A stretch of 6,265 nt of DNA, taken from positions 1 to 6,265 of the forward strand of contig JBKPCR010000505.1 in NCBI GenBank assembly GCA_046727435.1. Reading direction: 5' to 3'. Under the pieces are notes generated by a model. That model did no database searches, was not told the origin of the DNA, and saw only the letters and a list, made by a program, of their open reading frames with translations. Of this stretch, positions 1,677 through 6,265 are shown piece by piece; position 1 is the stretch's first letter; every line of letters begins with the position of its first letter. This DNA comes from CAVPRW01 sp046727435 [NCBI: bacterium]. Lineage in GTDB: Bacteria > Tectomicrobia > Entotheonellia > J063. The translations under genes were made by a program, and so were the position numbers.

Positions 1677-1704
1677 TTGACATCATCGCCAAAATGCGTA
1701 GAAT
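1677..1704 (+). promoter_or_regulatory. Sigma70-type promoter for the selenoprotein gene
   Basis: A perfect -35 box TTGACA (1677-1682) and a near-perfect -10 box TAGAAT (1699-1704) are separated by 16 bases. Transcription would start near 1711, leaving a leader of about 60 bases before the ATG at 1773. This is the best promoter-like sequence noticed in the window and suggests that the downstream gene is transcribed on its own. Confidence 0.6.
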
Positions 1705-1759: not shown

Positions 1760-1766
1760 AAGGAGG
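1760..1766 (+). promoter_or_regulatory. Strong ribosome binding site that fixes the selenoprotein start
   Basis: AAGGAGG lies six bases before ATG 1773. This decides the start of the gene: the alternative GTG at 1854, which a standard gene caller would use because of the TGA, has no Shine-Dalgarno sequence in front of it and sits inside a hairpin arm. Confidence 0.85.
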
Positions 1767-1772
1767 GTGAAC

Positions 1773-2060
1773 ATGGCCACAAATGGCGAGTGGAAAGTTC
1801 TCGTGGATATCTTGTACTGCGTCGCGTGACAACATCACGCCACGGCCACGTGGGTGGCCAACGAATTCTTCAGGACTTTCGGTGGTGACGTCGGGATCTC
1901 CCTGACTCCGGGCGCCAACGGCCGGTTCGAAGTGTACCTGGACGGTGAGAAGATCTGGGACAGGAAGGAAGCCGGAAACGTTTACCCGGATCTCAGCATT
2001 GTGCGGCAACTGAAGGGTGTGATCAAAGCCAAGATAGACTCGTTGGTCGCTGCTGACTAG
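1773..2060 (+). CDS. SelW/Rdx-family selenoprotein with CxxU motif (UGA read as selenocysteine)
   Basis: Read through the in-frame TGA at 1827-1829, the frame encodes 95 residues and ends at TAG 2058-2060. The N-terminus runs from strand 1 (KVLVDILYC) into C16-V17-A18-U19, the redox CxxU motif at the place where SelT/SelW/SelH proteins carry CxxC or CxxU. A helix follows (ATATWVANEFFRTFG), then the family's hallmark middle strands (VGISLTPGANGRFEVYLDGE) and KIWDRKEAGNVYPD. A C-terminal helix closes the protein (IVRQLKGVIKAKID). Length and order fit the family, which is usually 80-100 residues with a thioredoxin-like fold. SelW proteins are cytosolic thiol-redox proteins linked to glutathione and oxidative stress; the exact substrate is unknown. 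The gene has its own promoter and a strong ribosome binding site. The alternative is a Cys-type gene broken by a nonsense mutation, but the exact motif position and the following hairpin favour selenocysteine. No sel genes are in the window to confirm decoding. Confidence 0.88.
1827..1829 (+). other. In-frame UGA, predicted selenocysteine codon 19
   Basis: TGA is codon 19 of the frame beginning at ATG 1773. It occupies the second redox position of the C-x-x-U motif (TGC GTC GCG TGA). The same frame stays open for 76 more codons that encode the rest of the SelW fold, so the frame is intact on both sides. Confidence 0.85.
1844..1859 (+). promoter_or_regulatory. Bacterial SECIS-like hairpin
   Basis: GGCCAC (1844-1849) pairs perfectly with GTGGCC (1854-1859) around the four-base loop GUGG (1850-1853). 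The loop begins 20 bases after the UGA, and its first bases are G and U. Known bacterial SECIS elements lie within the coding region just downstream of the UGA, with the apical loop about 16-37 bases away and a guanine at the start of the loop; all of these hold here. The hairpin would bind SelB carrying selenocysteyl-tRNA. I see no clear bulged U in the stem. Confidence 0.75.
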
Positions 2061-2087: not shown

Positions 2088-2129
2088 CTCCTTCAGCCCT
2101 TCCGCGAGTTCCAGGAAGGGCTGAAGGAG
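2088..2129. terminator. 16-bp perfect inverted repeat between convergent units
   Basis: CTCCTTCAGCCCTTCC (2088-2103) and GGAAGGGCTGAAGGAG (2114-2129) form a perfect 16-bp stem with a 10-base loop. It starts 27 bases after the selenoprotein stop codon and lies between that gene and the end of the minus-strand operon, so it could end transcription from both sides. No U tract follows directly on either strand. A run of five T occurs only at 2170-2174, so a classical intrinsic terminator is not fully supported; an mRNA 3' stabilising hairpin is an alternative. Confidence 0.55.
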
Positions 2130-2245: not shown

Positions 2246-3163
2246 TCAGCGGGCAAGTGTCGGCGCGGCTTGGCCGAGTTCCGGAATGGGCCCGTCATAG
2301 TAGGGCAACCGATCAATGCGTGGGGTCCAGATACCGTCTGCGATGACCCGCCTGACGTGTGTCGCAATGTCCTCAAGGGTGGCAAACCACACCCGTCCCT
2401 TGCTGTGCATGTACTCGATCAGCCTGGCGATGGCCACGCAACGAGCGAGCCGCCCACTCAAAAAAGGATGCCAGACTGCAATCCAGAGTCCACCATATTC
2501 CCACATGGCATCGAATTCGGCCTGATAGACCTCCATCGCCTGCTGAGGCGACCGTGGAGGCATTAGGTAGGCGAGATCCCTTGATGCCATGAAGTGCGGC
2601 CAGTCATCCATGGCATAGTGCGTCGGCAACTCAACCACCTGCCCCTGGCCATTATCCAGCATATATGGGATGTCGTCGCCCATCAGCGAAGCATCGTAGA
2701 GCAACCCCTCGCGGACGAGGATGTCCAGGCTGACCCGCGAGAACCGGTAGGAGGGGGCGCGGAACCCTCGCGGTGGCTGGCCGGTCATGCGCGCGATGAC
2801 CTCGCTCGCACGTCGAAACCAGTAGGCCTCCTGCTCGGGCTCACAGGCGTTCGGGTGTTCGTGCAGATAGCCGTGATGGGCGATTTCGTGACCGCCCTGG
2901 AGAATCGTCTCGACCGCAGCTGGGTAGCGTTCCATACACCAGGCGGGGAGAAAAAAGGTCTGCCGCATGCCAAAGTGTTGGTAGAGGTCAACCAGGCGCG
3001 GTACAGCGACTTCAGGCCCGTACCGTAGCATGGACAGCGCCGCCACTCGGGTATCGGCGGATGAATGATGCGCCAGATGCAGAATGCTATCGCCGTCCAT
3101 ATCGAACGTAAAGGCCACGGCGCATCGCGCGCCATTCGGCCACGGGACCGGGTTCTTAATCAT
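2246..3163 (-). CDS. NodB-fold polysaccharide deacetylase / PuuE-like hydrolase
   Basis: The protein has 305 residues from ATG 3163, chosen because GGGAG stands seven bases upstream and the family usually begins shortly before WPNGARCAVAFTFD. The longer starts (ATG 3190, TTG 3229) lack a good ribosome binding site. Visible motifs are TFDMDGDS (residues 19-26, with D21 as probable base and D23 as probable metal ligand), GHEIAHHGYLHEHP (91-104, with H97 and H101 spaced as metal ligands), GFRAPSYRFS (near 137-147) and WHPFLSGR near residue 235. This pattern is that of the PuuE allantoinase / HpPgdA-like branch of the carbohydrate esterase 4 superfamily, whose members hydrolyse C-N bonds in cyclic amides or N-acetyl groups. 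There is no signal peptide, so a cytoplasmic small-molecule substrate is more likely than a cell-wall polymer. It is the last gene of the operon. Confidence 0.88.
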   Translation of the reverse strand: MIKNPVPWPNGARCAVAFTFDMDGDSILHLAHHSSADTRVAALSMLRYGPEVAVPRLVDLYQHFGMRQTFFLPAWCMERYPAAVETILQGGHEIAHHGYLHEHPNACEPEQEAYWFRRASEVIARMTGQPPRGFRAPSYRFSRVSLDILVREGLLYDASLMGDDIPYMLDNGQGQVVELPTHYAMDDWPHFMASRDLAYLMPPRSPQQAMEVYQAEFDAMWEYGGLWIAVWHPFLSGRLARCVAIARLIEYMHSKGRVWFATLEDIATHVRRVIADGIWTPRIDRLPYYDGPIPELGQAAPTLAR

Positions 3164-3232
3164 GGCAGCGCTCCCAATCGAATCATGCATGAGTCCCGTC
3201 TGACTGCAGTCGAGACGGAACGAGGGCAACGA

Positions 3233-4231
3233 TTAGAGGCCCAGAAGCTGCTCCAGGTTCTTCCAGAGAATTTTTTCTTTTTCCTCTGGGGTGAGACTAG
3301 TCAAGCTCTGCACCCATCCCGGAGGTGAGGGCTCCCACCCCACGAACGGCCAATCGCTGCCGAGGACGACGCGGTCTGCCCCCACTTGGTCGATCAGAAA
3401 GCGTAAGGCGACCTCGCTATTGGTCACGCAGTCGTAGTAGAGGCGACGTTGATAGGTGCTGGGAGGATGCTGAATGTGCATGCGGGCCTCGGAACGGACT
3501 TGCCAACCGCGGTCGAGGCGTCCCATGCCAAAGCAGGCCGGTCCACCCCCGTGAGCAATGCACACCTTAAGCTCTGGGCAGGCGTCGAAGATGCCCCCGA
3601 AGATGAGGGTGGCAACGAGCAAGGCGTCTTCCACAGGGACACCGATGCTATTTGCTAAGTTAAACTTCTCGGTAAAGGCCAACACCAGATTATCCTGCGG
3701 CTGCGGGTGAAAAAACAACACGGCGCCCATCGCTTCCGCAGCCTTGAACAACGGCAAAAAATGCGGCTCATCCCAGGTCTGGCTATTGACCACGGTGTCC
3801 AACTCCGCGCCTTTGAGGCCGAGGACATGGACGGCACGATCGAGCTCCGCCACGGCTGCGCCGACATCTTGCACCGGTAGGGTGGCCAGTCCGGAGAACC
3901 GTTTCGGCCACTGTCGGGTCATGGCGGCGATCTCGTCGTTCACCTCTCGTGCTAATTGCTGCCCCTGAGCCGAGTCTACATCATAACTGAACAATGGCGT
4001 ATGAATCGACACGACTTGGACGTCTACGCCCTGTTCGTCCATGTCCTTCAGGCGCTCTTCCGGCGTGAAACGCAGTTTGGGTGTTTGCACGCCGACGCGT
4101 TTGTCGGCGCGCACCACCGCCCCCAGCCCACGCCCCGGTTCGAGGCGGAAACCATGCCAGGCCTGCCCGGCGTCAACGGCCTTCCAGAGACTCTGCGGCA
4201 TCAGATGCGCATGAATGTCAATGCTCCGCAT
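3233..4231 (-). CDS. Amidohydrolase family protein, ACMSD-like (Amidohydro_2)
   Basis: The 332-residue protein has the TIM-barrel metal-enzyme motifs of the amidohydrolase 2 family: DIHAH (H7 and H9), FFHP (H175), AHGGG (H227) and GSDWPF (D293). The family includes aminocarboxymuconate-semialdehyde decarboxylase and related non-oxidative decarboxylases and hydrolases of unsaturated or aromatic acids; all expected metal and catalytic residues are present, so it should be active. The ATG at 4231 is preceded by AAGGAGGTG with good spacing, and the length is normal for the family. It begins 33 bases after the luciferase-like gene stops and is followed by the deacetylase gene about 70 bases on, which fits one operon. 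The exact substrate cannot be read from the sequence; a carboxylated intermediate produced by the preceding oxidoreductase is an inference. Confidence 0.9.
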   Translation of the reverse strand: MRSIDIHAHLMPQSLWKAVDAGQAWHGFRLEPGRGLGAVVRADKRVGVQTPKLRFTPEERLKDMDEQGVDVQVVSIHTPLFSYDVDSAQGQQLAREVNDEIAAMTRQWPKRFSGLATLPVQDVGAAVAELDRAVHVLGLKGAELDTVVNSQTWDEPHFLPLFKAAEAMGAVLFFHPQPQDNLVLAFTEKFNLANSIGVPVEDALLVATLIFGGIFDACPELKVCIAHGGGPACFGMGRLDRGWQVRSEARMHIQHPPSTYQRRLYYDCVTNSEVALRFLIDQVGADRVVLGSDWPFVGWEPSPPGWVQSLTSLTPEEKEKILWKNLEQLLGL

Positions 4232-4264
4232 GGAAACACCTCCTTATCGATGGCTGATGGAAAA

Positions 4265-5161
4265 TTAAGAGGCTCCGTCCATGGCTTCCTTGAACTGCCG
4301 CAAGGCATTGATGTGCTGGTGTGGGGATTTGAGGCCACCCCCGCCGGTCCCGACAGAGAGATTTGTGGCACCGAGTTCCTCCCAGGCCTTGACCTGGGCG
4401 AGCCAGTCTTGCGGTATCCTGCCGGCTACAGTGACACGGCCCTCAATGCCAATGTCGGCTGGGTCGCGTCCCGTCTCCCGGGCATAGCCCTGCATGCGGG
4501 CGATGGCCTGTCGCCCCTCTTCACCTGGGGAGAACATCGGGAACCAGCCATCAGCAAGCCGACCAATCCGACGTAACGCTGCCTCGGGAGGAATGGGACG
4601 CGCGGACCTGCCGGCCCCGATCCAGATGGGGATAGGCCGCTGCACCGGCATTGGATTCAAGCCCGCGTGGTTGATCTGGTGCCATTGGCCTTTGAAATCG
4701 ACCACCTCCTGCGTCCACAGCGCTCGCAGGACAGCGATTTGCTCCTCGCATCGTCGGCCACGGTTATGGAAGTTTTCGCCCAGCGCTTCATATTCGACAG
4801 GGTTCCAGCCCACTCCGATCCCCAGCCGCAGTCGACCGCTGCTGAGTACATCCACCTCGGCGGCCTGCTTGGCGACTAGGGCCGTTTGGCGCTGGGGGAG
4901 GATCAGAATGGCCGTCACCAGTTGGACCCTGGTGGTGATGGCGGCGAGATAGCTCATCAGGGTCAACGGTTCATGGAGGTAGCTCTGGTGCGTATAGGGG
5001 AACTCAGGCACCTCGGGATGGAACTGTGGGTCGGCACCCAGGACATGGTCGAGGATACGCAGATGGGCATAGCCCAGCTCCTCCGCTGCCTGAACGAAGT
5101 CGCGCAGCCCAACGAGATCAGCTCTGAACTCGATGATCGGGACGTTGACGCCAATGTGCAT
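4265..5161 (-). CDS. Luciferase-like (LLM class) F420-dependent oxidoreductase
   Basis: The 298-residue protein shows the luciferase-like TIM-barrel pattern. It has an N-terminal MHIGVNVP strand, a helix ending in AAEELGYAHLRILDHV (25-40), LTLMSYLAAITTRVQLVT (66-83), and then the signature LPQRQTALVAKQAAEVDVLS (88-107), continuing GRLRLGIGVGWNPVEYEALG (109-128). RGRRCEEQIAVLRALW (134-149) and RPIPIWIGAG (175-184) follow. This is typical of the subgroup annotated as F420-dependent, although FMN cannot be excluded from sequence alone. Such enzymes oxidise or oxygenate small organic substrates in the cytoplasm. AAAGGAGGG stands six to seven bases before ATG 5161. The gene lies 45 bases after the DUF4387 gene and 33 before the amidohydrolase gene, suggesting co-transcription. 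Confidence 0.9.
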   Translation of the reverse strand: MHIGVNVPIIEFRADLVGLRDFVQAAEELGYAHLRILDHVLGADPQFHPEVPEFPYTHQSYLHEPLTLMSYLAAITTRVQLVTAILILPQRQTALVAKQAAEVDVLSSGRLRLGIGVGWNPVEYEALGENFHNRGRRCEEQIAVLRALWTQEVVDFKGQWHQINHAGLNPMPVQRPIPIWIGAGRSARPIPPEAALRRIGRLADGWFPMFSPGEEGRQAIARMQGYARETGRDPADIGIEGRVTVAGRIPQDWLAQVKAWEELGATNLSVGTGGGGLKSPHQHINALRQFKEAMDGAS

Positions 5162-5206
5162 GGATACCCTCCTTTCGACGACCTCAGGGGCGAGGCCATG
5201 GTGCGG

Positions 5207-5521
5207 CTATAGCCCAGGAATCTCGATATCCATCAGCGGCGCATATTGCTGCCCGCCATGGTTGTCACTGTCGAACAGGTCACCCTGAAAGTTGGGGCGC
5301 GGGATCGACGCCTTGAAGGCCAAGGCATTATCGCAGACGAAGAATTTCACCTCATCCGGGGGCAAGCCATAGTGCGCGGCGACGACTTCGCGGCTGAGCG
5401 CTCCGGACTCTCTGACTCGCTCGTAGACTTCGGGCTTGGCGAACATGATGTCAAAGGTCAGCTCAAAGGGGCCGGCATTTTTACTACGGATAAGACGTGC
5501 AAGCTCTCCCAAGGTCGCCAT
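5207..5521 (-). CDS. DUF4387 family protein
   Basis: The 104-residue protein carries the family signature RSKNAGPFELTFDIMF (12-27), a central YGLPPDEVKFF segment, IPRP near residue 75, and the C-terminal GGQQYAPLMDIEIP. ATG 5521 was chosen because AGGAGG stands five bases before it; the two GTG codons immediately upstream (5527, 5524) overlap or crowd that site. DUF4387 proteins are small, have no established activity, and are usually encoded directly after an AtuA-family gene, as here with a 27-base gap. They are therefore thought to work with AtuA, perhaps as a partner subunit; that is inference. No membrane segment or signal peptide is seen. Confidence 0.88.
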   Translation of the reverse strand: MATLGELARLIRSKNAGPFELTFDIMFAKPEVYERVRESGALSREVVAAHYGLPPDEVKFFVCDNALAFKASIPRPNFQGDLFDSDNHGGQQYAPLMDIEIPGL

Positions 5522-5548
5522 CACCACCTCCTGCTCTGTATCGATTTT

Positions 5549-6265
5549 TCAATGCACATCGATGTATTCGATGGGGAACATCTCATAGGGGTCGTCGGGC
5601 TCGACCACGTGATTGACACAAAACCGATAGACTGCACCGCGTTCCAGATAGGCCGGGTTATAGGGACAGGCCACCCCGGTGATCAGGCCGCCCCATTCGG
5701 GGATCGGCAGATGAATGGCCTGGTGCCTGGTGATGGCGGCGATGGAGGAGGCGATCTCCTGCGTTGGCGCCGTGACTTCGAATAGCAGGCAGAGCTCATG
5801 CGTATGGATGTCCTTGACCGGCTCAAGCGGTCCCATGGTGCCGTTCTTACCGTACACACGGATGTAAAAGACATAGTCATCACGCGATAAGGCTTCGCCG
5901 TACACGTCTGCGACCCGCGCATGCACCCGTTCGTAGACGCGCGCCACCCAGTCGTCGATCTGACGGATGATAAAGGGATCGCGAATCGACCCGACGACCA
6001 CACTCTGATAGCCCACCTTTTCTGCGCCTTCCAGTTTCACCGTATAGCGCTCTGCCGGAATGAACTGGCTCCTCGTCACACGCACGCGGCGGTCGTCGAG
6101 CGCTTCATACCGCGAGTGAGTTAAATCGATCGTGCCGTTCGATTCCACATGCAAGTATGGATCGGCATTCTCGTAGAGGCTGTGGGAGGCGATACTTTGC
6201 GGCGTACAGCGCAGCGCCGGGTCGAGGGGTTCGACATCAAAATGATTCGACCGACAAGTCGCCAT
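5549..6265 (-). CDS. AtuA family (acyclic terpene utilization-like, DUF1446) protein, 5' end outside window
   Basis: About 238 residues are visible, ending at TGA 5549-5551, with the frame open at the right edge. The ATG that coincides with the edge (6263-6265) is probably internal, because family proteins are longer and this part matches their C-terminal half. Conserved stretches are HFDVEPLDPALRCTPQSIAS, LYENADPY, YEALDDRRVRV, YTVKLEGAEKVGYQ and VYGKNGTMGPLEP, followed by EVTAPTQEIASSIAAITRHQ, IPEWGGLITGVACPYNP and a YRFCVNHVVEPDDPYEMF-like end. AtuA was named from the acyclic terpene (citronellol/geraniol) pathway of Pseudomonas, but most relatives, including this DUF4387-linked type, act on unknown substrates. 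It is the first visible gene of the minus-strand operon, and the promoter must lie outside. Confidence 0.85.
   Translation of the reverse strand: MATCRSNHFDVEPLDPALRCTPQSIASHSLYENADPYLHVESNGTIDLTHSRYEALDDRRVRVTRSQFIPAERYTVKLEGAEKVGYQSVVVGSIRDPFIIRQIDDWVARVYERVHARVADVYGEALSRDDYVFYIRVYGKNGTMGPLEPVKDIHTHELCLLFEVTAPTQEIASSIAAITRHQAIHLPIPEWGGLITGVACPYNPAYLERGAVYRFCVNHVVEPDDPYEMFPIEYIDVH

Follow-up and report, generated by a model that had tools for sequence, protein, structure and literature searches.

Is the TGA codon at 1827-1829 a stop that breaks a small gene, or does it encode selenocysteine (Sec)? The window, that is, the whole stretch of 6,265 nucleotides analysed here, contains an otherwise open frame of 95 codons on the plus strand, from ATG 1773 to TAG 2058-2060, which is split by this single in-frame TGA at codon 19. 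No further in-frame stop codon or frameshift was found in 1773-2060. It is highly probable that the gene at 1773-2060 is intact and encodes a SelW-like selenoprotein of 95 residues from the Rdx family, with UGA 1827-1829 as its predicted Sec codon. The features of the locus are as follows; L001 to L004 are loci found in other genomes.

1677..1704, plus strand: promoter-like TTGACA-16 nt-TAGAAT (11/12, a consensus match only)
1760..1766, plus strand: Shine-Dalgarno sequence AAGGAGG, 6 nt ahead of the ATG
1773..2060, plus strand: gene of a SelW-like selenoprotein (Rdx family), 95 codons and a TAG stop; codon 19 is the predicted Sec codon
1818..1820, plus strand: TGC for Cys16, the first redox position of CxxU, invariant in a 21-row alignment
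1827..1829, plus strand: in-frame TGA, predicted Sec19 of C16-V-A-U19 (second redox position); TGA in L001, L002 and L004, TGC in L003
1844..1859, plus strand: predicted bacterial SECIS hairpin, stem 1844-1849/1854-1859 (6 bp), loop GUGG at 1850-1853
1854..2060, plus strand: false 68-residue ORF from GTG 1854, expected from a Sec-blind gene-finder and the sole entry for this frame in the standard ORF list
2088..2129, plus strand: 16-bp perfect inverted repeat, 28 nt past the stop codon, without a T-run

The preliminary description had pointed out the frame, the TGA at the second redox position and the AAGGAGG before the ATG, and all of these are seen in the sequence. It had also warned of a false 68-residue ORF starting at GTG 1854, and the standard ORF list gives exactly that piece. 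The window gene is another case where an ordinary gene call loses the active site. Could the short ORF be the true gene? If the UGA terminated translation, the product would be the 68-residue fragment from GTG 1854, whose frame is indeed open, or an 18-residue peptide. However, the first strand and the redox motif would then be lost, although they are the conserved part of the protein: C16, U/C19 and Y15 are invariant across the 21-row alignment. Moreover, the codons ahead of the TGA are conserved too, and the Shine-Dalgarno sequence precedes ATG 1773. Early termination is thus scarcely credible.

The Rdx family and the modelled fold

The read-through product, with the TGA taken as Cys or Sec, matches the Pfam family Rdx (PF10262) with an E-value of 1.5e-17 and 64 bits (cut-off 22.6), and the NCBIfam model TIGR02174 (CXXU_selWTH) with 45.9 bits (cut-off 34.2). 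With both cut-offs passed, the SelW/Rdx family and the motif given in the preliminary description hold. The equivalog model SelTWH_Campy (NF041051) was not reached (42.1 bits, cut-off 88). A structure model was made by AlphaFold2 from the 21-row alignment with Cys substituted for Sec (pLDDT 92.4, pTM 0.83). The modelled order is a strand (9-16), a helix (22-39), three strands, and a helix (74-93), and the model places C16 at the end of the first strand and residue 19 in the loop ahead of the helix. In the model, this is the placement one would expect for a CxxU redox site, and the fold would be thioredoxin-like.

The top PDB matches of the model were 2obk (the best, Z 13.5), 2fa8, 2oka, 2p0g, 2ojl and 3dex, with Foldseek E-values of 4e-8 to 9e-6 and Z of 12.8-13.5. 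These six all-Cys bacterial Rdx proteins, each also matched by sequence with an E-value of 7e-10 or better, are the nearest solved structures by both sequence and fold; they differ from the window product in having Cys, not Sec, at the second redox position. Next came mouse selenoprotein W (2npb), which has the same fold and aligns structurally over 85 residues at 26% identity (Z 10.9), and MIEN1 (2ljk, Z 10.0), with ordinary thioredoxins later (Z below 8.5). Mammalian SelW is also described as a CxxU protein (PMC8508763), like the window product. Judging from its family, the window product would be a thiol/selenol oxidoreductase, and the Cys16-Sec19 pair of such a thioredoxin-like CxxU protein would most likely cycle between the reduced and the selenenylsulfide state.

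In the Sargasso Sea set, SelW-like proteins were among the bacterial selenoproteins reported, with 48 sequences (PMC1088965), and SelW-like selenoproteins were also reported in sequenced bacteria (PMC1794560). According to the GOS ocean survey, the SelW-like family, with CxxU, is the most abundant selenoprotein family there, with 427 Sec and 56 Cys sequences (PMC2398784), and the table of a 2022 review gives SELENOW-like as pfam10262 with CxxU (PMC9312934). Since bacterial SelW-like CxxU selenoproteins have thus been described from 2005-2006 onwards (PMC1088965, PMC1794560, PMC2398784), the window gene is a further member of a known family, correctly read. What it shares with the bacterial SelW-like proteins, as these are presented in PMC9312934 and PMC2398784, is the Rdx domain, the UGA at the second redox position of CxxU, the thioredoxin-like fold and the in-frame SECIS, the last two being predicted for the window. 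The two types nevertheless differ. The classical bacterial SelW type has CxxU-N-Y and about 75 residues, whereas the type in the window has CV[APS]U followed by [QKGN] and, in most rows, 90-97 residues. Unlike classical SelW, it retains features of Cys-Rdx proteins, namely W27 and the LTPG..G.FEVYLDG stretch.

The TGA codon and the Sec-decoding genes in relatives

Is the TGA conserved? With the window protein alone as the query, a scan of 84,980 species genomes gave the four loci L001, L002, L003 and L004. The codon aligned to U19 is TGA in L001, L002 and L004, and TGC in L003. The nearest relative is L001, with 75% identity over the alignment and 74% in the best segment. Its genome, G001, is the nearest genome examined: the amidohydrolase of the window (3233-4231) is 77% identical, over the full length, to one of the G001 copies. 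Of 145 G001 relatives, 30 carry an Rdx gene, with 35 matches in total. Exactly one TGA and no other stop was found in 27 of these 35 matches, which lie in 25 genomes, while the remaining eight lack a TGA, one of the eight being a fragment. A wider search, with the four-row alignment as the query, gave matches to the window's type in 209 of 296 relatives of another genome, G148. Here, every row among the matches listed has one TGA, and six of those rows have a TAA or TAG as well. Such a second stop probably marks where the gene normally ends, since in four G001 relatives it disappeared when the shorter Pfam profile was used. All full-length TGA genes that were read out have this codon at the U of C-x-x-U.

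For a closer comparison, 100 family hits in the loci were reduced to 80 distinct ones, and the fragment L036, which lacks the motif, was excluded, giving 79 genes. Position 19 is U in 65 of them and C in 14, although the compared loci were the top-scoring hits from each search and were not sampled at random. The preliminary description had proposed looking for Cys homologues at U19 and for random stops in relatives; Cys is indeed aligned there in homologues, and the relatives have a TGA at the same codon instead of random stops.

These comparisons bear on the idea that the window holds a dying pseudogene, in which a Cys codon has mutated to TGA. A change from TGC to TGA takes one base, and Cys versions of the family exist. 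However, the same codon is TGA in 65 of the 79 compared genes, the frame has no additional stop or frameshift, and the Shine-Dalgarno sequence is strong. The substitutions between the window and L001 are mostly synonymous on either side of the TGA: pN is 0.127 and pS 0.527 for the 14 codons before it, and pN is 0.157 and pS 0.754 for the 71 codons after it, with the synonymous sites saturated. A pseudogene is therefore very improbable, if slightly less so than the other alternatives. A sequencing error at 1827-1829 could be suspected because the window sequence is a single record, but the TGA at the same codon in the independent records L001, L002 and L004 leaves this with almost no plausibility. 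As for the DNA itself, the blastn alignment of the window with L001 is limited to 1788-2066, in effect the gene alone; thus, the gene including its internal TGA is the conserved unit. A search of L001 and L002 for conserved gene neighbours, made with the six other window proteins, gave no match.

If the UGA is read as Sec, the decoding genes should be looked for in close kin. G001, which carries the same TGA-containing gene as the window (L001), has SelB (377.7 bits, cut-off 242.25), a tRNA-Sec (77.6 bits) that ARAGORN reads as tRNA-SeC with the anticodon TCA, and SelD (L127; 357.4 bits). Directly ahead of SelB lie the last 165 positions of SelA, whose score of 169.2 bits is below the cut-off because the gene is cut by the contig end. 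The SelD gene has its own in-frame TGA for the Sec of CAGU (CAGUASK). In the relatives of G001 as well, most of the above-cut-off SelD genes among the matches listed have an in-frame TGA themselves. Thus, Sec decoding is indicated for the lineage of the window, as close kin G001 has selB, selC and selD. For the window's own organism, I infer Sec insertion from the decoding genes seen in this kin genome. SelB and tRNA-Sec would decode UGA 1827-1829 as selenocysteine.

G148 has SelB and a tRNA-Sec with TCA; a search for SelA in it found none. G146 has SelB and SelA. Its tRNA-Sec match (52.3 bits, above the cut-off) was dropped as support, since ARAGORN reads it as tRNA-Ser with GCT. In G147, to which the Cys gene L003 belongs, neither SelB nor tRNA-Sec was found above the cut-offs, and no SelA was found. 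Among the 145 relatives of G001, SelB is above the cut-off in 24 of the 25 genomes with a TGA Rdx gene versus 45 of the 120 others (Fisher p 2.3e-8), and among the 296 relatives of G148 in 185 of the 209 with a match versus 50 of the 87 without one (p 8.4e-9); these p-values are a guide only, as the genomes are related, many are incomplete, and the TGA was checked in part of the 209. G066 is the single genome among the G001 relatives with a TGA Rdx gene but without an above-cut-off SelB, and its SelD is above the cut-off. The absence of SelB there, and in 24 of the 209 matching G148 relatives, is perhaps due to incomplete assemblies.

An organism-wide reassignment of UGA to Trp or Gly, as in genetic codes 4 or 25, would likewise open the frame. 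However, three of the six other long ORFs in the window (the TPR, polysaccharide deacetylase and AtuA-like ones) stop at TGA, so UGA is not simply reassigned, and an in-frame TGA was found in none of the six. Furthermore, all 14 genes without the TGA have Cys as the homologous residue and none has Trp or Gly, and the SelB and TCA-anticodon tRNA-Sec of G001 speak against it too. Such a reassignment is exceedingly unlikely. On the evidence above, all four alternatives (a pseudogene, global UGA reassignment, early termination and a sequencing error) were rejected in favor of an intact selenoprotein gene.

The candidate SECIS hairpin and the Sec branch

Does the mRNA have a SECIS element? A bacterial SECIS model has been published with a loop of 3-9 nt, a stem of 4-16 bp, a G in the first two loop positions, a spacing of 16-37 nt and an MFE of -7.5 or lower, as given in PMC13188914. 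The predicted hairpin of the window, GGCCAC-GUGG-GUGGCC, starts 14 nt past the UGA and agrees with this model, with a loop of 4, a stem of 6, G first, a spacing of 20 nt and -11.1 kcal/mol. It may help the decoding of the UGA. Its predicted position is in frame, whereas the eukaryotic SECIS lies in the 3′ UTR, as stated in PMC1088965.

The hairpin was compared with shuffled sequences. Synonymous (codon-preserving) shuffles were as good as the window hairpin in 11 of 400 and in 12 of 300 cases. For the 40 nt after the UGA (MFE -12.6 kcal/mol), 18 of 200 dinucleotide shuffles were as good (z -1.53), and by this measure the hairpin is not outstanding. In the branch of the family to which the window belongs, the -7.5 limit was reached by 10 of 32 genes versus 3.8 expected from synonymous shuffles; the corresponding numbers were 23 of 33 versus 6.2 for the other Sec genes and 4 of 14 versus 2.9 for the Cys genes. 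Counted from the UGA, the start of the best loop falls at 19-22 nt in 31 of the 32 genes of the window's branch and at 21-22 nt in 30 of the 33 other Sec genes; in the Cys genes, it is scattered from 16 to 34.

The branch has 23 distinct 48-base stretches, and covariation was assessed in 15 of them, leaving out the CVSU-G-Y-F group and near-copies. The outer pair joins the wobble bases of the Thr24 and Ala29 codons; among the 15 sequences, it is C-G in 8, U-A in 2, U-G in 1, unpaired in 3 and, in the window alone, G-C, while the innermost stem pair is unpaired in 12 of the 15. The covariation score was 0.192 versus a shuffled mean of 0.120; it was reached in 4 of 500 shuffles, and sliding the stem gave 0.021-0.095. 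Several weak signs combined indicate that the predicted hairpin is real, and the hairpins of many relatives appear to be shorter than the published limit.

The tree of the 79 genes groups the window gene with L001 (99/92), within a branch of 32 genes that all have Sec (99/95). The sister of this branch is a branch of 13 genes that all have Cys, and both together have a support of 99/97. The window's Sec branch is separate from the classical C-x-x-U-N-Y genes. G001 has three Rdx paralogues (L001/L007, L005, L006) of different branches, one with Cys and two with TGA. The tree, which is unrooted, asks for two changes between Sec and Cys, but a separate Sec origin of the window's branch is not claimed, since the AU test left a single Sec group unrejected (lnL difference 9.96, p 0.334). 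As a tentative idea, which I consider rather doubtful, the Sec-only branch may have gained Sec apart from classical bacterial SelW, from a Cys Rdx ancestor, building its own SECIS in the Thr24-Ala29 codons; this branch occurs in the lineage of the window and is widespread among the relatives of two genomes titled Chloroflexi. No description of this branch was found in the open-access literature on selenoproteins in Tectomicrobia, SAR202 and Chloroflexi/SelW. The Sec-only branch beside its all-Cys relatives, together with the G001 paralogues (two Sec, one Cys), offers a small natural set for studying Cys-Sec exchange and SECIS formation under a protein-coding constraint.

The surroundings of the gene

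An Rfam search of the window gave no match, and ARAGORN found no tRNA in it. At 2-940 on the plus strand lies the C-terminal part of a TPR-like protein, which is open at the start of the window and has weak, sub-cut-off Pfam matches only. A row of minus-strand genes occupies 2246-6265 and encodes a polysaccharide deacetylase, an amidohydrolase (PF04909), a luciferase-like F420-type oxidoreductase, a DUF4387 protein and an AtuA-like protein. The adjoining DUF4387 and AtuA-like genes suggest a catabolic cluster.

The SelW-like gene and the polysaccharide deacetylase gene are convergent, and the repeat region between them (2088-2134) has a predicted fold of -33.9 kcal/mol (z -5.9). One arm of the 2088-2129 repeat was sought among 127 loci and was not found. 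The inverted repeat is possibly a transcript end between the convergent genes. Its 3′ arm continues into AAGGAGGTGAT, which I take to be the full complement of the anti-Shine-Dalgarno end of 16S rRNA.
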